Below, in pieces: positions 1 through 48,200 of a stretch of 64,000 nucleotides of DNA. The position numbers and the translations under genes were made by a program. The stretch comes from Aliarcobacter trophiarum LMG 25534. Its GTDB lineage: Bacteria; Campylobacterota; Campylobacteria; Campylobacterales; Arcobacteraceae. The notes beneath the pieces were generated by a model. The model made no database searches. It saw nothing but the letters and a program-made list of their open reading frames with translations, and was not told the DNA's origin. The stretch's first letter is position 1; every line of letters starts with the position of its first letter. The DNA lies in contig NZ_CP031367.1 of NCBI RefSeq assembly GCF_003355515.1, positions 434,001 through 498,000 of the forward strand, in the 5' to 3' direction.

Positions 1-259
1 ATTTAAAATTAGTGAGAAACCATCTAATGTTAGTTGGGCTGAGATTTTAGCTGTTGGATTTTTGGGTGGAATTGGCTTTACCATGTCGATTTTTATCTCA
101 ACTCTTGCTTTTGATGACCCACATATTGTAAGTGCTGTAAAAATAGGTATTTTTGCAAGTTCTATTAGTGCTGCAATTATTGGTGTGATTTTTATTTTAA
201 TTATAGGTAAAAAGGAGACACAAAAAGAGTTTTTGGAAGGCTTGAAAAGTGATAAGTAG
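1..259 (+). CDS. nhaA: Na+/H+ antiporter NhaA, C-terminal part (cut by window start)
   Basis: Only the last 85 or so codons are present; the reading frame is open from base 2 to the TAG at 257-259. The visible protein contains the conserved NhaA stretch GFLGGIGFTMSIFI followed by another membrane helix and a short charged cytoplasmic tail. NhaA exchanges protons for sodium across the inner membrane. Its stop codon lies inside the first codons of the next gene (GTG at 249), so the two are probably translated from one mRNA. The start and promoter lie outside the window. Confidence 0.9.
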   Translation, partial: FKISEKPSNVSWAEILAVGFLGGIGFTMSIFISTLAFDDPHIVSAVKIGIFASSISAAIIGVIFILIIGKKETQKEFLEGLKSDK

Positions 260-560
260 TGAAGATATTATAAAAATTGTTGCTTATTTCTCTATAATAG
301 CTCATAGTCCTGGAAGATTAAGAGTAAGAGTAAACCCAAAAATTGTAAAAGAGGGTGAAAAGATTACTCTTAGTGATATTGAAAATCTTCCAAAAAAAAT
401 ATTAGGAATAGAGGAGATTAAGATTAACAAGCTTATAGCTTCTGTTACAATAATATATGATCCTAAAATTTTTAAGCCAAAACTTTGGGAAGATTTGATA
501 AAAAATGAAAATATAAATGAGATAACACAAATTATAAATAATCTAGTAAAGGAGCTTTAA
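249..560 (+). CDS. Small HMA-like (heavy-metal-associated fold) protein
   Basis: A 103-residue protein with a GTG start that overlaps the nhaA end by 11 bp. Residues 19-27 (HSPGRLRVR) resemble the start of HMA_2-type domains, and the rest alternates beta and alpha segments as expected for a ferredoxin-like fold. It lacks the CxxC of classical copper chaperones, so direct thiol metal binding is unlikely. A similar N-terminal domain occurs in the P1B ATPase at 2225, the last of this run of six closely spaced genes. Small HMA-domain proteins accompany the ATPase in ferrosome clusters as I recall them. Its role here, perhaps as a partner or assembly factor, is inferred from the neighbours. Confidence 0.6.
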   Translation: MISSEDIIKIVAYFSIIAHSPGRLRVRVNPKIVKEGEKITLSDIENLPKKILGIEEIKINKLIASVTIIYDPKIFKPKLWEDLIKNENINEITQIINNLVKEL

Positions 561-562
561 AC

Positions 563-1246
563 ATGGCTATTTCTTACAATATCCTACTAGAAAAAAGAGT
601 TGATTTAAATTCAAATATAGGTATTGATGAACAGATTTTACAAATTGCCATTTATGATGAATTTAAAGCTTATGAGACTTATAGCAAAATTATTGAAACT
701 TTTGGAAATATAAGCCCATTTTCAAACATAAAAGAGGCGGAAGCAGTTCATTATAGTGTACTTATTCAACTAGCAGAAAAATATGAAATAGAAGTTCCAA
801 TAAATGATTGGAGAGATAAAATAGAGATTCCAAGTACTATTATAGAGTGTTGCGAATTAGGGGTAGCTTCTGAGATTGAAAATATTGCTATGTATAATAA
901 TCTTTTGACACACTCAACAAAAAGTGATATTACAGATACTCTTTTTAGGCTTCAATCAGCCTCTTTTAATAACCACTTACCAGCTTTTAGAGCATCTGTT
1001 ATAAATCACTATAATGGATTTGGTAATTTACAAAATAGTGAAGATATTATTGGAAAAATGAAAGAGTATGAAGAACTTATAAATAATCTTATGAGTGGAA
1101 ATATTGATGAAAATACAATTTCAAATCTTAGTTCAAAATTATTTTCAAATATAAGTTTTCAATTTTTAGCAGGAGCTGTTGGTGGAGCAGCAATTGTTGC
1201 ACTTTTAAATCAATTTTTAGAAAATCAAAATTTAAACAAGGAGTAA
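563..1246 (+). CDS. Membrane-anchored ferritin-like (DUF2202-type) protein
   Basis: A 227-residue protein. Residues 22-150 look like a ferritin-like four-helix bundle of the DUF2202 kind. Candidate diiron ligands are E33 (DEFKAYETY), E60 and H63 (EAEAVH), E104 or E106, and H138 (FNNHLPAF). Near residues 200-219 there is a glycine- and alanine-rich hydrophobic helix (FLAGAVGGAAIVALL), which would tether the bundle to a membrane by its C-terminus. It sits 3 bp after the HMA-like gene and 4 bp before the next gene, inside a putative iron-organelle operon. A role in iron oxidation or loading is an inference; the fold assignment is from motif recognition only. Confidence 0.65.
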   Translation: MAISYNILLEKRVDLNSNIGIDEQILQIAIYDEFKAYETYSKIIETFGNISPFSNIKEAEAVHYSVLIQLAEKYEIEVPINDWRDKIEIPSTIIECCELGVASEIENIAMYNNLLTHSTKSDITDTLFRLQSASFNNHLPAFRASVINHYNGFGNLQNSEDIIGKMKEYEELINNLMSGNIDENTISNLSSKLFSNISFQFLAGAVGGAAIVALLNQFLENQNLNKE

Positions 1247-1249
1247 AAA

Positions 1250-1510
1250 ATGGCATTACCATTTATAGCTGGTTTAGCACTAGGAGCCTTAGGAGTTATT
1301 GCTTATAAAAATAGAGATACTCTAAAACAAAAAAGTGAAAATATTTTTAAAGAGGCAAAACAAAAAGGTGAGATTTTAAAAAAAGATATTGAAACAAAAA
1401 TTTCAAAAACAAAAGAGAGATTTGAAAAGAAAGAGGTTGTAGAAAAGCCAAAAACTACAAAAAGAACATATACAAAAAAAGCAAAAGCTGAAGATGGGGT
1501 AAGTAAATGA
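1250..1510 (+). CDS. Small YtxH-like membrane protein
   Basis: An 86-residue protein: an N-terminal glycine- and alanine-rich membrane helix (about residues 3-19), then a long, highly charged Lys/Glu helix (20-65) and a basic tail. This layout resembles YtxH-type and other small membrane-shaping proteins. There is no catalytic motif. An AAGGAG Shine-Dalgarno lies just before it, at the end of the ferritin-like gene. Its last codons overlap the next gene by 4 bp (ATGA), indicating translational coupling. Likely a structural membrane component of the same system as its neighbours. Confidence 0.6.
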   Translation: MALPFIAGLALGALGVIAYKNRDTLKQKSENIFKEAKQKGEILKKDIETKISKTKERFEKKEVVEKPKTTKRTYTKKAKAEDGVSK

Positions 1511-1851
1511 AAACTTTAAATACAGGAATGCCTAGAAGTGTTTTAGGTCATGTAGTTAGTGGTGCTATTGCTAGTGCTGTTATTAGTGGAGCAATAAATT
1601 ATAAAAAATATAAGAATGGTGAATTAAAAAGTTGTGAAGCTATAAAAGATACAACAAAAAAGGCAACACAAGGAGCTATTGTAACAGGAAGTGCAATTGC
1701 AACAACAAATTATATTGGTGAGGGAAACTATTTAAGAGCAATAACATCTGCAACTATTGGAGTAGCTGGAGTTTATGCACTTGAAATAATAGAAGAGAAA
1801 TTGGAACAAAAGTATTTAACAAACCAAAACCTACAACTAGAGGAGATTTAA
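1507..1851 (+). CDS. Glycine/alanine-rich small membrane protein
   Basis: A 114-residue protein of unknown family. It holds three short hydrophobic segments rich in Gly, Ala, Ser and Thr (about residues 13-30, 56-70 and 80-97), separated by basic stretches such as NYKKYK. The glycine-zipper-like spacing suggests packed membrane helices. Small Gly-rich membrane proteins are typical of magnetosome and other organelle clusters, but I see no sequence match that I can name. It overlaps the preceding gene by 4 bp and is separated from the next by 1 bp, so it clearly belongs to this operon. Confidence 0.55.
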   Translation: MKTLNTGMPRSVLGHVVSGAIASAVISGAINYKKYKNGELKSCEAIKDTTKKATQGAIVTGSAIATTNYIGEGNYLRAITSATIGVAGVYALEIIEEKLEQKYLTNQNLQLEEI

Positions 1852-1852
1852 A

Positions 1853-2221
1853 ATGGCTAAAAATAATCAAAATTTTAATCAATATAATACAGATATAAAT
1901 AGTACAAGAAATAATCAACAAAGTGGATTAAATATCAACCAAAACCCATATATAAATAGTAGTATCAACCAAAATTTTCTAGGACAAAATCCAAATAATC
2001 AAATCCAAAACCAATCTAACTCTTTATTAAATGGTGATTTTGTAAAAGGTGCTTTAATTGGAGCGGTTGCAACTTATGTTTTAACAAACAAAAATGCTCA
2101 AGAGAGTATATTTCAAGCAATTAATAAAGCAAAAACTTTGGTAACTGCTGGAATTGAAGAGTTAAAAGAGAGAATAGAAGATGCAAAGGCAGCTTCACAA
2201 TCAAATACACAAGAGTTCTAA
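1853..2221 (+). CDS. Asn/Gln-rich protein with one membrane helix
   Basis: A 122-residue protein in three parts: a low-complexity N-terminal region of about 60 residues dominated by Asn, Gln and Ser; a Gly/Ala membrane helix (about 64-80, KGALIGAVATYVL); and an amphipathic charged helix ending in a polar tail. The C-terminal half resembles the small YtxH-like protein at 1250. The N/Q-rich part is probably disordered and could mediate self-association, which is an inference. It lies 1 bp after the previous gene and 3 bp before the ATPase, in the same operon. Confidence 0.55.
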   Translation: MAKNNQNFNQYNTDINSTRNNQQSGLNINQNPYINSSINQNFLGQNPNNQIQNQSNSLLNGDFVKGALIGAVATYVLTNKNAQESIFQAINKAKTLVTAGIEELKERIEDAKAASQSNTQEF

Positions 2222-2224
2222 AAA

Positions 2225-4339
2225 ATGGATAAAAAATTTATAAAAGTTCATCAAATAGGACTTAGAGCTAGATATAAGCTTGAAATACTAAAAGATAATT
2301 TTATAGATGAAGATATTTTAAAAGGTTATTTTAGTAGTTTTAAAGAGATTAAAACTATTAGAATAAATAAAAAAGCATACTCAATAATTTTTGAGCTAAG
2401 AGAAGATATTTTTAAAAAGATAGAGGAGATTTTAAAAGATTTATCTTTAGAGACTCTTTTAAAATCTGTACAAAATAGTGAAGCTAGTGTTTGTGTAACT
2501 TGTGTAAGTAGTGAAAAACCATCTATGAAAGCAACTATTTTTGCAAGTAGTGCTTTAATATCTGAAAGATTAGTTACAAATAGTAGTTTAAAAGCAGTTA
2601 CAACAACAGTAGCATGTACTCCACTTTTAATAGATGGAATAAAAGAGCTTTTTAAAGAAGGGCTTACTTCTCATGTACTTGAAGCCGCTGCTGTTGCTAT
2701 ATCTATTTTTAGAAAAGATTATTTAGCCGCTAACTCTACAAATGCTATGCTTGAACTTGGTGAATATATAGAAGAGACAACTGTTCATAAAAGTGATGAT
2801 TTACTAAAAGAGTTGGCAAAACCAAATATTGAAGAGGCTTGGGTTGAGAAAAAGATAGCTGGAAAAGTTGTAGAGGTTTTAGTAAAAACAGAAGAGTTAA
2901 AAATTGGAGATATTATTATTGTTGGAGCAGGTAGTACTATTGCAATAGATGGGCATATTATTGATGGTGCTGGAACAATAAATCAAGTCTCAATGACTGG
3001 AGAAGCGACACCAATAGCAAAGTATAGAGGAGACAGGGTAATATCTGGAACTATAGTGGAAGAGGGAAGATTTAGAATTTGGGCTGAGCAAGTTGGATCA
3101 AATACAGCAACTCAAAGAATAAAACACTATATAGAAAACTCTTTAAATGAAAAATCATCAGCTCAGTTAAAAGCAAATAAATTAGCAAATAAGTTAGTTC
3201 CTGTTACTTTAGGACTCGCTACTGCTGCTTATATTTTTACAAGAGATTTTCAAAGAGTTGCTTCTGTTCTTCAAGCTGATTACTCTTGTGCTTTAAAACT
3301 TGCAACTCCTGTTGCTTTTAAATCTACAATTTCAAAAGCTGGACATAATGGAATTATGATTAAAGGTGCAAAATCTATTGAAGCTTTAAGTAGTGCTGAT
3401 ACCTTTGTATTTGATAAGACAGGAACTCTAACAGGAGGAGAGCTAGAAGTTGTAGGTGTGGATTCATACGATAGAAGTTGGAGTGAAGAGAAGCTTTTAA
3501 ATCTTACTGCTTCAACAGAAGAACACTATTTTCATCCAGTTGCAGAAGCTGTTGTAAAGGCTGCAAAAGAGAGAGGTTTTGTACATATGCACCATGAAGA
3601 GGTTGAATTTATTGTAGCTCATGGAGTAAAAACAGAGGTAAAAGGTAAGTCTGTTATTATTGGAAGTCGTCATTTCTTAGAAGATGATGAAAAGATAGAT
3701 TTTAAACCTTTCAAAAAAGATATTGAAAACTCTTTAAAAAAGAGTGATACACTACTTTATGTTGGATATGACGGTAAACTTTTAGGAACAATTGGTTTAG
3801 CTGACAACTTAAGAGAAAACTCTAAAAATGCTATAAAGAAATTAAAAACTCTTGGAGTTAAGAATATAGTTATGTTAACAGGTGATATAAAAGAGAAAGC
3901 TTTAAAAATTGCTGATGAGTTAGGAATTGATGAGGTAAAAGCGGAACTTTTACCACAAGATAAAGCAAATATTGTAAAAGAGCTTATGAGTAAAGGTAAA
4001 AAAGTTGCTTTTATTGGAGATGGGATAAATGATGCACCAGCTTTAATCTCTTCACATGTTGGGATATCTATGAGCCGTGGAGCTGATATTGCAAAAGCAA
4101 CTGCTGATATTAGTCTATTAAAAGATGATATTGAAGCTGTTGTTGAAGCAAAAGAGTTTGCAAATAAAACTATGAATTTGATAAATACAAACTTTAATGC
4201 AACAGTAGGAATAAATAGTGCAATACTTTTAGGTGCAACTTTTGGTTTATTTTCTCCAATTGTAACTGCTATATTGCATAATGGGACAACAATAGGATTA
4301 CTTTTAAATTCGATAAGAGGAGTAAAATTAGTAAAATAG
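2225..4339 (+). CDS. P1B-type metal-transporting ATPase, FezB-like (ferrosome type)
   Basis: A 704-residue P-type ATPase. The N-terminal HMA-like region has an R-X8-N motif (R16 to N25) and a CVTC pair at 90-93. Core motifs are intact: TGE at 258-260, phosphorylation site DKTGT at 397-401 (D397), HP at 437-438, GDGIND at 598-603, and HNGTT at 685-689 in the last membrane region. The membrane metal site, normally CPC or SPC, reads SCA (354-356). An R-X8-N motif on a P1B ATPase is, as I recall, the signature of FezB, which loads iron into ferrosomes. Iron as substrate is inferred from that and from the ferritin-like gene in the operon. A general Mn, Zn or Fe exporter is the alternative. Confidence 0.75.
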   Translation: MDKKFIKVHQIGLRARYKLEILKDNFIDEDILKGYFSSFKEIKTIRINKKAYSIIFELREDIFKKIEEILKDLSLETLLKSVQNSEASVCVTCVSSEKPSMKATIFASSALISERLVTNSSLKAVTTTVACTPLLIDGIKELFKEGLTSHVLEAAAVAISIFRKDYLAANSTNAMLELGEYIEETTVHKSDDLLKELAKPNIEEAWVEKKIAGKVVEVLVKTEELKIGDIIIVGAGSTIAIDGHIIDGAGTINQVSMTGEATPIAKYRGDRVISGTIVEEGRFRIWAEQVGSNTATQRIKHYIENSLNEKSSAQLKANKLANKLVPVTLGLATAAYIFTRDFQRVASVLQADYSCALKLATPVAFKSTISKAGHNGIMIKGAKSIEALSSADTFVFDKTGTLTGGELEVVGVDSYDRSWSEEKLLNLTASTEEHYFHPVAEAVVKAAKERGFVHMHHEEVEFIVAHGVKTEVKGKSVIIGSRHFLEDDEKIDFKPFKKDIENSLKKSDTLLYVGYDGKLLGTIGLADNLRENSKNAIKKLKTLGVKNIVMLTGDIKEKALKIADELGIDEVKAELLPQDKANIVKELMSKGKKVAFIGDGINDAPALISSHVGISMSRGADIAKATADISLLKDDIEAVVEAKEFANKTMNLINTNFNATVGINSAILLGATFGLFSPIVTAILHNGTTIGLLLNSIRGVKLVK

Positions 4340-4343
4340 ATTT

Positions 4344-4396
4344 TAATAATAGTTATCAGTTTTGTTTAAGAAATTAAATAATACAATACTGATAAT
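4344..4396 (+). promoter_or_regulatory. Putative Fur-controlled promoter
   Basis: Bases 4344-4358 (TAATAATAGTTATCA) match the 7-1-7 Fur box TGATAATnATTATCA at 12 of 14 specified positions. A second exact half-site, TGATAAT, lies at 4390-4396. Between them TACAAT at 4382-4387 is a plausible -10 element, so a repressor at the first site would cover the -35 region. The arms TTATCAGT (4353-4360) and ACTGATAA (4388-4395) also form an 8-bp inverted repeat. The site would control the small ORFs starting at 4416. AT-rich DNA gives such matches by chance, so confidence is moderate. Confidence 0.4.
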
Positions 4397-4415
4397 TTAT
4401 TAAAGGATATATATT

Positions 4416-4535
4416 ATGCCAATTTTATTACCATTAGCGACTTTAATCACGGGTATTTTAACAGTAAAAACTGTAAATAAAACTATGAAAACTTATGAAA
4501 GAAGAAAAAAAAGAGATGAAAGAGTTAAAATTTGA
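4416..4535 (+). CDS. Very small membrane protein, possibly the N-terminal part of the next ORF
   Basis: A 39-residue ORF with an ATG preceded at the proper distance by AAAGGA (4402-4407). It has one hydrophobic helix (PILLPLATLITGIL) and a basic tail. Its frame runs through an A8 tract (4505-4512) and stops at 4533-4535, overlapping the following ORF by 41 bp. Loss of one A would join both frames into a single protein of about 109 residues. It is either an independent microprotein or the first half of a broken or frameshift-controlled gene. It sits directly behind the putative Fur promoter. Confidence 0.45.
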   Translation: MPILLPLATLITGILTVKTVNKTMKTYERRKKRDERVKI

Positions 4536-4746
4536 CTTAGAACTTCAAAAAGAAGTTGCAAAAATAGGGATGACTGCAACTTTAGGGGCTACTGTTGTAA
4601 CTTCAATGTTTATGAAAAATAAAATTGCAAAAAATACTCATATTATAGCAGGTGTCGCATTTTGTGGATTTGCACTATGGCACCATATGCTTTATCAACC
4701 AAAAAAATCACAAAAAAATGAAAAAAATATTAAAAAAGCTCAATAA
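4495..4746 (+). CDS. Small hypothetical membrane protein
   Basis: An 83-residue ORF: a charged N-terminus, then two hydrophobic segments (about residues 26-40, MTATLGATVVTSM, and 50-64, IIAGVAFCGFALW), then a Lys-rich tail. An alternative in-frame ATG lies at 4516; neither start has a convincing ribosome binding site, which supports the idea that translation comes from the upstream small ORF. No family recognised. The position next to the P1B ATPase operon and behind a possible Fur box suggests a link to iron handling, by inference only. Confidence 0.5.
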   Translation: MKEEKKEMKELKFDLELQKEVAKIGMTATLGATVVTSMFMKNKIAKNTHIIAGVAFCGFALWHHMLYQPKKSQKNEKNIKKAQ

Positions 4747-36209: not shown

Positions 36210-37844
36210 CTATTTGTTTTCTACTCTTATTTGATTATTTTTTTCATCAAATATTATTTTAAGATACCCTGCTAGTCCTGATATGTCATTCCCTAGTACC
36301 CAAAAGTCCTCTTTTTTATTAAATGTACTATATTTTGTCTCATATCCTAAAAGTTTTGATATAAGATTTGATATTTGATAGTGGGAAATATATGGAAAAT
36401 CTCCAAAAGAGTTCCTTAAATTTTTTGCATTATTTAGAGTATATATAAAAAATGGAACTTGATAAATCTCTTTAAAGTTTAGATTTCCATGTATAAAGCT
36501 TTTGTTTTCAATATTTGTAGCATGATCTGAAGTAAATATTATATATGTTGGCTTAGATGTTTTGCTTTTAATTTTATTTATAATGCTTTCTATAATAAAA
36601 TCAGTGTATCTAATAGCATTCATATAATCTATTGAAGTTTGATTAAGAGAGATATCATTTTTTAATAAATCTTTTGAGAAATATTCAAACTCTTTTGGAT
36701 AATTTTCATAAAAAGGAGAGTGAGATGAACGTTGATGCAAGATTACAAAGCTTTTTTTTGAAAAATCTATCTGATCTAGTTTATCAACTAAAAAACTATC
36801 ATATGGATTTTTATTTGCATCGTTAGTAATAGAACTTCCATCCTCCAAAAAATCTATTGAACTTGGGCATATATAACTTTTTATCCCTTTTAGTGAACTA
36901 GAAGATTGTGTACTATAAAAATATGTTTTAAAATTATTCTCTTTTGCCATCTTAAATAAGCAAGTATTTCTTGACAATATTTGAGGTGTTCCATCTGGTT
37001 TTTGTAGCATATTAAAAAAGCTCCCTAAAGATACCATCGTAAAAACTGAAGATGAGATAGCACTTTGATAATAGAAGTTTGTATCATTTCTTAAATTATT
37101 TAGAAAAGGTGTTGTTTCGTATGAATAATCATACAGACTCATAAAGTCTTTGTGTAAAGATTCACCCATAATTACAACTATATTTATATCTTTATCTTCT
37201 ACTATAGAAGGGGTCTTAATGATATCTTGCTCTAAGCCACTATTTGCAAATAGTTTTTTAGGAAGTATGATACCTGTTAAATTTCCTAATGCAAAGATTG
37301 TATTTTTTATAGGATTGTGCTCAAAATTTGGCTTACTGTGTCTATACGGTTGGTTTTTTATATATAGTTCAATTGGAGTATAGATTAACATTAAAATAAA
37401 TAGAGGAAGAAAATATGGGATAGTTTTCCTATTTTTAAATTTTGAAATTAATATAAAAATAGAAATGATTGCAAAAATAACCAATATTGTTGGAAAAATA
37501 ACAATATGTAATACACTTTTAAAAGTACCTATTACTTCATTGAATTCTGTAAAAAAGAGCATAAACTCTAGTGGAAAAATCCATGTACCATAAAAAGAGA
37601 AATGAACAAGCTGAAACCATACAAAAATTATTAGAATAGAGTAAATTATAAAAATTGCTCTTTTACTAACTATAGAAACTACTATTAGATGTATGATAAG
37701 TTGATCAAAAAAACTTTTGAATGTAAGATTGAAAATTAAAATATCATTAAATATTCTATAAAATTGTTCAATTGATATGAATATTAGATTGATAATAAGA
37801 GCTAAAACAATATTGTATTTAAATTGCTTAAAAAAATTACTCAT
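36210..37844 (-). CDS. Phosphoethanolamine transferase-like membrane sulfatase (copy 1)
   Basis: A 544-residue protein: five N-terminal membrane helices, then a periplasmic sulfatase-fold domain from about residue 220 (IVVIMGESLHKDFMSLYDY). The nucleophile Thr is probably in VFTMVSLGSFF and later metal ligands are in TSDHATN. Such enzymes transfer phosphoethanolamine (or glycerol phosphate) from phospholipid to lipid A or core sugar. It is a close paralog of the gene at 46560-48200, sharing most of the N-terminal membrane region and the catalytic blocks. Target unknown. Confidence 0.8.
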   Translation of the reverse strand: MSNFFKQFKYNIVLALIINLIFISIEQFYRIFNDILIFNLTFKSFFDQLIIHLIVVSIVSKRAIFIIYSILIIFVWFQLVHFSFYGTWIFPLEFMLFFTEFNEVIGTFKSVLHIVIFPTILVIFAIISIFILISKFKNRKTIPYFLPLFILMLIYTPIELYIKNQPYRHSKPNFEHNPIKNTIFALGNLTGIILPKKLFANSGLEQDIIKTPSIVEDKDINIVVIMGESLHKDFMSLYDYSYETTPFLNNLRNDTNFYYQSAISSSVFTMVSLGSFFNMLQKPDGTPQILSRNTCLFKMAKENNFKTYFYSTQSSSSLKGIKSYICPSSIDFLEDGSSITNDANKNPYDSFLVDKLDQIDFSKKSFVILHQRSSHSPFYENYPKEFEYFSKDLLKNDISLNQTSIDYMNAIRYTDFIIESIINKIKSKTSKPTYIIFTSDHATNIENKSFIHGNLNFKEIYQVPFFIYTLNNAKNLRNSFGDFPYISHYQISNLISKLLGYETKYSTFNKKEDFWVLGNDISGLAGYLKIIFDEKNNQIRVENK

Positions 37845-45555: not shown

Positions 45556-46560
45556 TTAACTCTTTTTATGTTTTTGTTCAAATTTTCTTGAAGCTTCTAA
45601 TATTTCTAAATCATCAAATTTTATAAAAGCTCTCTCTTTTATATTTAACTCTTTTGCTTTTTTATACATTTTAAGCGAAGCTATAAAACCTCTAAAACCA
45701 ATTATACTAAAGATACTTAAAAACAAAAACAGGTAGTGATTTAAAAGTAGTGAACTATTATGAAGGTTTTTCCATACAAAGTAGTTTCTATTTCTTTTGC
45801 TCAAAATCTTTGTTTTTGTACTTACTTTTGATGCGATTGTTCCACCCACTTTATGATAACCTGTAACATTAGGTGCATAAATACAAGATTTCCCTCTTTT
45901 AATTCCTCTATAAACTAAGTCACTCTCTTCAAGCAAATATGGATCCATAAACTCATCATAACCATTTAGCTCACTAAAATCTTCATATCTTATAAAAAAA
46001 TATGCTCCTTGAGCTCCAAAACTAACAATATTTAACTCATCTTCTATATTAGTAAGTTCATCTTTATATATATTTTTTGTGAATCTAAAAAAACCTCTTT
46101 TAAAAGTAAGAAGTTTAACTCCATCTTGCTTCTGTTTTGTAAAATAGCTAATACCATTACAAGTTAAACAAAAAGGTTTTGTTTGAATGTATTTTATAGC
46201 ATTTATAAAAAATGTTTCATCTAATAAAACATCATTGTCAATAAAAAGTATATAGTTTAAAGTATCATGATTCGTGGATAAAGAACTTATAGAAACACCG
46301 TAATTTCTGGCGCTTCCTGCCCCTTGTTTTGGATTTGTATCAAAGATTAAAAAAGCATATTTTTTTTGACACTCTTTTAGATACTCTAAAGTGTTGTCAC
46401 TAGAGTTATCATTTATAACTATCATCTCTATATTATTGTATATTTTCTCATTCTCTAGAGTTGTTTTTATAATTTCTAAGTTTTTTATCAAAAAATCTCT
46501 TAAATGATTTTCTCCATTTAATGAAGGAATTACTATGCTTAAATTTATCTTTTTATCCAT
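45556..46560 (-). CDS. Glycosyltransferase family 2
   Basis: A 334-residue protein with the GT-A start SIVIPSLNG, DNSSDNT and the DXD-like FIDNDVLLD (about residue 110), then ESDLVYR near 214 and a hydrophobic segment near 273-295 that could anchor it to the membrane. It probably adds a sugar to LOS. It overlaps the following phosphoethanolamine-transferase-like gene by 1 bp and lies 1 bp before the GT4 start. Confidence 0.85.
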   Translation of the reverse strand: MDKKINLSIVIPSLNGENHLRDFLIKNLEIIKTTLENEKIYNNIEMIVINDNSSDNTLEYLKECQKKYAFLIFDTNPKQGAGSARNYGVSISSLSTNHDTLNYILFIDNDVLLDETFFINAIKYIQTKPFCLTCNGISYFTKQKQDGVKLLTFKRGFFRFTKNIYKDELTNIEDELNIVSFGAQGAYFFIRYEDFSELNGYDEFMDPYLLEESDLVYRGIKRGKSCIYAPNVTGYHKVGGTIASKVSTKTKILSKRNRNYFVWKNLHNSSLLLNHYLFLFLSIFSIIGFRGFIASLKMYKKAKELNIKERAFIKFDDLEILEASRKFEQKHKKS

Positions 46561-48200
46561 TATTTTCCTTTGTTACTATTTTCAACAATTTTATTATCTT
46601 CATTAAATGATATTGTTCTAAATCCACCAAGCCCACTTAAATCATTTCCACATACAAACATATCTTCTTTTAAGTTAAATATTTCATAAGCAGAACTATA
46701 ACCTAAAAGCTTAGCTAAGATATTTGAAATTTGATAGTGAGAAATATAAGAAAAGTCACCAAAACTATTTTTTAGATCATTTGTACTATTTATACTATAT
46801 ATAAAAAAAGGAACTTTATAAATAGAGTTACTATCTAACATACCATGCCCTTGTCTAGCATTATCTCCAATATTTGTTGCATGATCTGATGTAAAAATTA
46901 CATATGTTGGTTTTGATGTTTTTTGCTTTAATGTACTTATGATTTTTTCAAGTACACTATCTGTATAACTTACACTATTTATGTAATCTATTGTATTTTG
47001 TTCTAAATTATTAGTATTTTCTTTATTAAAGGGTCTATAATCTTTTGGAATATAGTCCAGAAATGGAGTATGTGAAGCTCTTTGATGAAGAGTAATAAAG
47101 CTAGGATGTGATAGATCAATATCATTTAGTCTATCTACTAAAGTCTCATCCAAAATAGAATCATCAATTTTATCCGATATAAAAGAGCCATCTTCTAATC
47201 TATCAAGATATTTTGTACATAGATAGTTTTTTATACTTTTCAATTCACTTGTAGCTTGTGAACTATAGAAATATGTATTAAAACCATTCTGTTTTGCCAT
47301 TTTAAAAAGACAACTATTTGTTGATAATATTTGAGGTAAGCCATCTGGCTTTTTTATCATATTAAAAAAACTAGGTATTGCAATAGTAGTTAAAACTCCA
47401 CTTCCTATACCATTTTTATAAATAAAATTTTTATCATCTCTTAAGCTTTTTAGAAATGGAGTTGTATTTAAAGGATAATCATATAATGACATATAGTCTC
47501 TTTGAAGAGATTCACCCATAATTATAACTATATTTATATCAGGGTTTTCAAATATTTTATTTGGTGTTTTTGTAATTTCTTGTTCTAATCCACTTCTTCC
47601 ACTTATTTTTTTTGGTAACACATTTCCAAAAAGATTTGATAATGTAAGTATTGTATTTTTTAAAATATAGTATTCAAAATTTGGGTTACTATTTTTTTTA
47701 TAATCATCTTTTAAATAGATTCTAAGTGGTAAAAATAGTACAGCTATAATTAAAAAAATAGATAGATATTTTACTTTATATCTATTATTATTAAATTTTT
47801 TAATAAAAAAGATTGATAATAATAGAATAATAAAAAATAAAATTGTAGGAAATATAGTGATACCTAAAACAGATTTAAAAGTAAGGAAAACTTCTTGAAA
47901 CTCTATAAAAAACAGTATATATTCTAATGGAAATATCCAAGTCCCATAGTATGAAAAGTGGACCAATTGAAACCATATAAATAGTGAAAATATAAAATAT
48001 ATTACAAATATTGCTCTTTTATTTATAATTGAAATTACTAAAAGATGTATAATAAACTGTTCAATAAAACTTTTGAAAGTAAGATTAAATATTAATATAT
48101 CATTATAGACTCTATAAAATTGTTCAATAGATATAAAAATTATAGTAAGAATAAGTGCTAAAAATATATTATTTTTAAATTTGCTAAAAAAAGTTTTCAT
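46560..48200 (-). CDS. Phosphoethanolamine transferase-like membrane sulfatase (copy 2)
   Basis: A 546-residue paralog of the gene at 36210-37844: same five-helix N-terminus (FISIEQFYR, NDILIFNLTFKSF and YGTWIFPLE are shared), same sulfatase domain with IVIIMGESLQRDYMSLYDYP, a likely nucleophile Thr in GVLTTIAIPSFF, and TSDHATN. Both copies lie on the minus strand and bracket the variable cassette. The acceptor is unknown; lipid A or core sugar is expected. Confidence 0.8.
   Translation of the reverse strand: MKTFFSKFKNNIFLALILTIIFISIEQFYRVYNDILIFNLTFKSFIEQFIIHLLVISIINKRAIFVIYFIFSLFIWFQLVHFSYYGTWIFPLEYILFFIEFQEVFLTFKSVLGITIFPTILFFIILLLSIFFIKKFNNNRYKVKYLSIFLIIAVLFLPLRIYLKDDYKKNSNPNFEYYILKNTILTLSNLFGNVLPKKISGRSGLEQEITKTPNKIFENPDINIVIIMGESLQRDYMSLYDYPLNTTPFLKSLRDDKNFIYKNGIGSGVLTTIAIPSFFNMIKKPDGLPQILSTNSCLFKMAKQNGFNTYFYSSQATSELKSIKNYLCTKYLDRLEDGSFISDKIDDSILDETLVDRLNDIDLSHPSFITLHQRASHTPFLDYIPKDYRPFNKENTNNLEQNTIDYINSVSYTDSVLEKIISTLKQKTSKPTYVIFTSDHATNIGDNARQGHGMLDSNSIYKVPFFIYSINSTNDLKNSFGDFSYISHYQISNILAKLLGYSSAYEIFNLKEDMFVCGNDLSGLGGFRTISFNEDNKIVENSNKGK

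Follow-up and report, generated by a model that had tools for sequence, protein, structure and literature searches.

A ferritin-containing fez-type operon with a distant MamC homologue in Aliarcobacter trophiarum, a candidate for building ferrosome-like iron stores

The window analysed here is a stretch of 64,000 nt from the genome of Aliarcobacter trophiarum LMG 25534 (GCF_003355515.1, NZ_CP031367.1, positions 434,001 to 498,000, forward strand). Flanked by the end of nhaA and by pyrH, it carries at 249-4746 a cluster of eight genes, all on the + strand:

249..560, + strand: HMA_2-like small protein of 103 aa with a GTG start (PF19991, E 2.4e-6, under the cut-off; found in 46/46 Campylobacterota loci)
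563..1246, + strand: ferritin-like protein of 227 aa with a C-terminal hydrophobic membrane anchor (AlphaFold, Foldseek, DUF2202/Rubrerythrin)
1250..1510, + strand: Lys-rich one-TM protein of 86 aa with an N-terminal hydrophobic segment (conserved LPFIAGxxxG start; 45/46 Campylobacterota loci)
1507..1851, + strand: MamC-like membrane protein of 114 aa (NF038051, E 1.1e-5; reciprocal match to a true MamC)
1853..2221, + strand: N/Q-rich protein of 122 aa with a YtxH-like membrane segment and a charged tail (Pfam YtxH in 8/29 members)
2225..4339, + strand: FezB-type P1B ATPase of 704 aa with a degenerate HMA_2 N-terminus (TIGR01525, E 2.5e-146; tree)
4416..4535, + strand: one-TM peptide of 39 aa, overlapping the start of the next gene (translation; homologues in the same place; dN/dS 0.13)
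4495..4746, + strand: FezC-like (DUF4405-related) two-TM protein of 83 aa (H49/H63 invariant in 29 homologues; weak DUF4405)

The first gene and the 3' end of nhaA have 11 nt in common, the intergenic gaps among the first six genes range from -4 to +3 nt, and most genes of the cluster overlap or sit at most 4 nt apart. A preliminary description of this DNA had counted six tightly coupled genes; the tight coupling was borne out, while the count rises to eight, the 39-aa ORF and the 83-aa FezC-like gene having been missed or not recognised. Its labels HMA-like, membrane-anchored ferritin-like and N/Q-rich are supported by family models, AlphaFold/Foldseek and family conservation. Of the proteins that it called small Gly- or N/Q-rich membrane proteins, the middle one is MamC-like rather than merely Gly-rich. 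Elsewhere in the window, two closely similar large membrane proteins (36210-37844 and 46560-48200, both on the - strand), by their translations duplicated paralogues, bracket a block of sugar-nucleotide and glycosyltransferase-like genes.

The same gene order was found in the 20 family genomes examined, except that in some of these the two small genes at the end had moved or were not detected, and dN/dS values against a close relative lie between 0.11 and 0.26 across all eight genes, indicating purifying selection. The recurrence of the order together with this selection signal places the cluster far beyond chance.

The ATPase gives the cluster its identity. In a tree of P1B ATPases, it falls with 100% support into a clade with the FezB proteins of Rhodopseudomonas, Azospirillum, Magnetospirillum, Azotobacter and others, and E. 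coli CopA and ZntA, a Rhodococcus CtpC-like protein, a Priestia HMA2-type ATPase and the three other P1B ATPases of the A. trophiarum genome lie outside this clade. The loci used were obtained by scanning named genomes with a FezB alignment, which yielded members from Azospirillum, Magnetospirillum, Rhodopseudomonas, Azotobacter, Thauera, Aeromonas and the Arcobacter group. Lineages with proven ferrosomes are represented in this tree by a Rhodopseudomonas relative only: the FezBs of Desulfovibrio magneticus, Shewanella putrefaciens and Clostridioides difficile were left out, and none of the four strains with proven ferrosomes is included. The tree had been proposed beforehand as a check on the fez assignment, and the ATPase grouped with FezB and away from CopA, ZntA and CtpC.

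In place of the CPC motif, members of the FezB clade have ADYSCALKLATP (small variations occur), and a further mark of the clade is HNG[TS]T close to the C-terminus. The window FezB reads DYSCALKLATP where the CPC motif is expected. Conserved residues in the N-terminal part of FezB are H9, R14 and R16 (HxxxxRxR of the degenerate HMA_2 domain), R46 and N48. The preliminary description had based its argument for a ferrosome cluster on an R-X8-N string (R16-N25) together with small membrane partners. Both residues are present in the window protein, but the motif is not conserved: of 23 proteins of the FezB clade, only 2 have N25, and R-X8-N is missing from the first 70 residues of the Rhodopseudomonas FezB. 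As a hallmark, the string was rejected after alignment and is put down to chance; in the form given it cannot serve to define a fez cluster.

Several genera carry a second, divergent P1B ATPase (approximately 30% identical to FezB) directly upstream of the cluster and on the same strand (L048:83-2236, L049:47-2110, L050:276-2051, L051, L071, L072, L073, L075, and L081). This enzyme has SCPCA where FezB has DYSCA, and in some loci its gene has a Fur-family gene on one side and the HMA gene on the other. There may be a variant of the fez cluster with two ATPases. FezB matches with one or two in-frame stop codons were seen in seven genomes of the family (G029, G032, G033, G059, G066, G090, and G092).

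Six fez genes, RPA2333-2338, underlie the ferrosomes of R. palustris (PMC12016538). The corresponding locus in Rhodopseudomonas sp. BR0M22 (L114) also consists of six genes, encoding an HMA2-FezC fusion, an HMA protein, an LPLLRFASG protein, a MamC-slot protein, a YtxH-like protein and FezB; judging from the genus, the gene number and the map position in related genomes, it is presumably the same operon as that of R. palustris. The A. trophiarum cluster resembles it in having a FezB of the same clade and, in the same order, HMA_2, LPxxxFxxG one-TM, MamC-slot and YtxH-like proteins. It differs in that FezC is a separate protein encoded after FezB, whereas it is fused to an HMA2 domain in Rhodopseudomonas, and in the addition of the ferritin-like and 39-aa genes. 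In the fez clusters of Azotobacter, Thauera and Azoarcus, which often adjoin feoAB, a ferritin-like gene occupies the same slot as in the window, its product being about 20-27% identical to that of A. trophiarum; a stand-alone FezC after FezB was not detected in the loci examined from these three genera. The N/Q-rich YtxH-like family is conserved from Alphaproteobacteria to Campylobacterota. Neither the one-TM nor the YtxH-like protein matched a magnetosome family among the NCBIfam models.

The FezC of Desulfurispirillum indicum is a b-type cytochrome that binds heme b, and FezC has been proposed to set the iron redox state in ferrosomes (PMC10979944). The 83-aa protein of the window is, like the FezC/DUF4405 cytochromes, small, with two TM segments, two conserved His residues and a weak match to DUF4405 (E 0.006). 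DUF4405 matches, weakly, 20 of 29 FezC-like homologues, and K23, H49 and H63 are invariant in all 29, the alphaproteobacterial HMA2-FezC fusions included. The likeness to FezC was drawn from these His residues and the DUF4405 match, and makes it probable that the protein is a b-type cytochrome subunit. Some genera encode the FezC-like protein as a fusion with a SpoIIAA-like domain (PF11964, E 2.1e-20; L048:6569-7249 and L049:6368-7006).

An AlphaFold model of the ferritin-like protein, built from the window protein and 25 relatives, reaches a block-mean pLDDT of 94-98 over residues 11-150. The best PDB match in Foldseek was MJ0754 (E 4.5e-5), and bacterioferritins were found with weaker scores. 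DUF2202 matched 25 and Rubrerythrin 15 of 34 family members, the window protein itself weakly. The product of 563..1246 is thus predicted to have a four-helix ferritin-like fold. E33, E60, H63, E104 and H138 are each retained by 29-33 of the 34 sequences and, as E33, E60-x2-H63, E104 and H138, match the di-iron ligand positions of the ferritin-like superfamily (DUF2202, rubrerythrin, and bacterioferritin). Unlike in that superfamily, the Glu of helix 4 is replaced by N or S, and a C-terminal membrane anchor is present. With five ligand-like positions retained, the helix-4 Glu absent and the di-iron ligands lost in part of the class, the protein may bind iron at the membrane, and ferroxidase activity is doubtful. 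In L072, L077 and L081, the protein in the ferritin slot lacks most of the di-iron ligand positions, which suggests a structural rather than a ferroxidase role there.

The slot holds a ferritin-like gene in 44 of the 46 Campylobacterota loci. Of 76 loci from outside Campylobacterota, 25 have one at this place, including loci of Azotobacter, Thauera, Azoarcus and Aromatoleum. The idea that it is unique to the window cluster was therefore rejected, and its occurrence in the 25 outside loci makes it the mark of a widespread subtype. The earlier suggestion that the ferritin-like protein may define a new cluster type holds insofar as the gene marks a subtype; it is not peculiar to this genome but an accessory common to Campylobacterota and many Beta- and Gammaproteobacteria.

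MamC has hitherto been associated with the magnetic organelles of other bacteria, and a homologue of it is an unexpected part of this cluster. Residues 11-93 of the 1507..1851 product align to positions 8-90 of the 97 in NCBIfam model NF038051 (E 1.1e-5), at 25.6 bits against a curated equivalog cut-off of 100 bits. The model matched 18 of 40 members of the MamC-like family (best E 5e-9); it found this protein as its sole match in the window genome and returned zero matches in 14 control genomes. In the reverse direction, a profile of the Campylobacterota proteins found the true MamC of Magnetospirillum sp. SS-4 (E 2.3e-7) as its best match outside the cluster family, and the window protein scored 85 against SS-4 MamC, the maximum of 2000 shuffles being 61. 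On these alignments, the protein is a distant MamC homologue that falls outside the MamC equivalog family NF038051.

E44 and D48 of the window protein align with E45 and D49 of SS-4 MamC, an acidic E-x3-D pair in the loop, which from its spacing and an offset of 21 would correspond to Glu66 and Asp70 of the AMB-1 record (PMC6584501, PMC7604359). Among 21 homologues, the pair is kept in about half (E in 11, D in 9). The similarity to magnetosome MamC (Mms13) is thus full-length and reciprocal and extends to the acidic pair; in contrast to MamC, the protein is encoded outside any magnetosome island and scores below the cut-off. The proteins in the MamC slot of Alpha- and Betaproteobacteria match a profile built for this analysis but not NF038051, so that the link to MamC rests on the Campylobacterota and Vibrio branch and on that profile. 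Tentatively, and at somewhat less than even odds, ferrosome clusters may carry an ancestral or sister form of MamC, a charged-loop membrane protein that nucleates or confines iron mineral in a compartment bounded by lipid; on that view, magnetosomes and ferrosomes would have a part for handling mineral in common, beyond their similar overall design.

FezB occurs once in the 1.92-Mb genome of A. trophiarum, besides the three other P1B ATPases, and was found in 64 of 104 genomes of the family and in 122 of 347 sampled genomes of the class. Gene order was essentially fixed in 20 family and 20 class loci. Among the 46 Campylobacterota loci, of which at least one pair (L047, L167) looks like the same contig reached twice, HMA, YtxH-like and FezB genes were present in every one; the counts for the other genes were 45 (MamC-like and Lys-rich, each), 44 (ferritin-like), 39 (FezC) and 27 (39-aa gene). 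The flanking nhaA and pyrH are common to close relatives only. The ATPase is also encoded on two Arcobacter plasmids of 133 kb, of which one was seen with the complete cluster. The limited sharing of the flanks, together with the plasmid copies, indicates that the cluster moves as a unit. The plasmid-borne copies (L087 on the 133-kb plasmid CP129951.1, and CP134847.1) are from Arcobacter isolates from chicken meat, and their carriage there shows that the cluster can move between strains. That the cluster is a relic, or a non-functional passenger of plasmids, would agree with these copies and with the patchy distribution (40 of 104 family genomes without a match), but it is contradicted by the selection signal on eight intact genes (dN/dS 0.11-0.26) and is regarded as extremely improbable.

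In relatives, neighbouring genes link the cluster to iron. The stretches fetched for 124 FezB loci held feoA and/or feoB in 25 cases; in Azotobacter, Thauera and others the feo genes come immediately after FezB, and in three genera of the Arcobacter group they are divergent from the cluster. Of the 46 Campylobacterota loci, 20 have a Fur-family gene upstream of the cluster and on its strand (Pfam FUR, E down to 1.7e-35; 41% identity to the main Fur), and in 8 the main fur is the next gene downstream. The order feoB-fez-fur was seen in three genera (L041, L045, and L046). In the A. trophiarum genome itself, feoB adjoins fur with no fez genes between them (G000:C1:802056-804168); the interval between feoB and fur seems either to have gained the fez cluster by insertion or to have lost it. 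No convincing Fur box precedes the window cluster, the AT-rich DNA making matches weak. The best boxes come from Azotobacter relatives, where 16/19 positions match in DNA of 70% GC and shuffled sequence gives a mean of 10.8, and from some loci of the Arcobacter group, where they precede the Fur-like gene.

The window cluster is not beside fur or feo but comes right after a zur-like gene and nhaA, znuA being in divergent orientation, a context from which one could read a cluster for the efflux or storage of zinc (or another divalent metal) under Zur. The zinc exporters CtpC and ZntA are P1B ATPases as well, and HMA_2 domains are not specific for iron. Yet the zur-nhaA context is limited to 3 of 47 loci, the window included and all from close relatives, against Fur-family or feo neighbours in about 30; DYSC takes the place of the Zn/Cu CPC motif in FezB, and the tree sets FezB apart from ZntA and CtpC, which makes a zinc cluster a poor prospect. 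Somewhat less improbable, but still unlikely, is an iron detoxification system without an organelle, in which FezB would export Fe2+ across the plasma membrane into the periplasm and the small proteins would be regulators, chaperones or a membrane-bound ferritin feeding FezB. P-type iron exporters exist, such an enzyme could be fed by a membrane-anchored ferritin, and the feo/Fur neighbourhood fits an exporter equally well. An exporter would, however, need fewer parts than are present here: the conserved small membrane proteins, four to five in number, have homologues in operons that make organelles, and there is a MamC homologue besides.

In conclusion, the cluster is best read as a fez operon of a ferritin-containing subtype that would build ferrosome-like, membrane-bounded iron stores, a reading to which we assign a probability of about 0.77. 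The fez-type identity proposed in the preliminary description stands, supported by the FezB clade, the slot-by-slot homology with Rhodopseudomonas, the two invariant His residues of the FezC-like protein and the Fur and feoAB neighbours in relatives. The cluster is known in kind and a variant in composition. A search of the open literature on ferrosomes with Campylobacter, ferritin-like or MamC returned no relevant statement; the founding papers (Grant 2022; Pi 2023) lay outside that search, and a prior description is possible.

In the proposed mechanism, FezB (2225-4339) would take Fe2+ from the cytoplasm and pump it into vesicles or invaginations that belong to the inner membrane, and the two HMA_2 modules, in the small protein and at the N-terminus of FezB, would hand over or sense the metal. 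With heme b bound, FezC (4495-4746) would carry electrons from one side of the organelle membrane to the other, an electron flow that could set the Fe2+/Fe3+ balance needed for storage or release of iron. The role of the ferritin-like protein, held at the membrane by its anchor, would be to bind iron there and perhaps to oxidise it, and the MamC-like, YtxH-like and Lys-rich proteins might shape the membrane and offer a charged surface for the nucleation of iron mineral. We infer iron as the substrate, organelle formation, the redox role and mineral nucleation from gene content, homology, conserved ligands and the iron-related neighbours in relatives.

If this reading is true, iron organelles would be widespread in the class, including animal-associated Campylobacter- and Arcobacter-like bacteria, given the ATPase in 122 of 347 genomes. 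The cluster would connect ferrosomes with ferritins as well as with MamC of the magnetosomes, and would offer a direct, testable route into bacterial iron mineralisation in membranes and into the origin of magnetosome parts.
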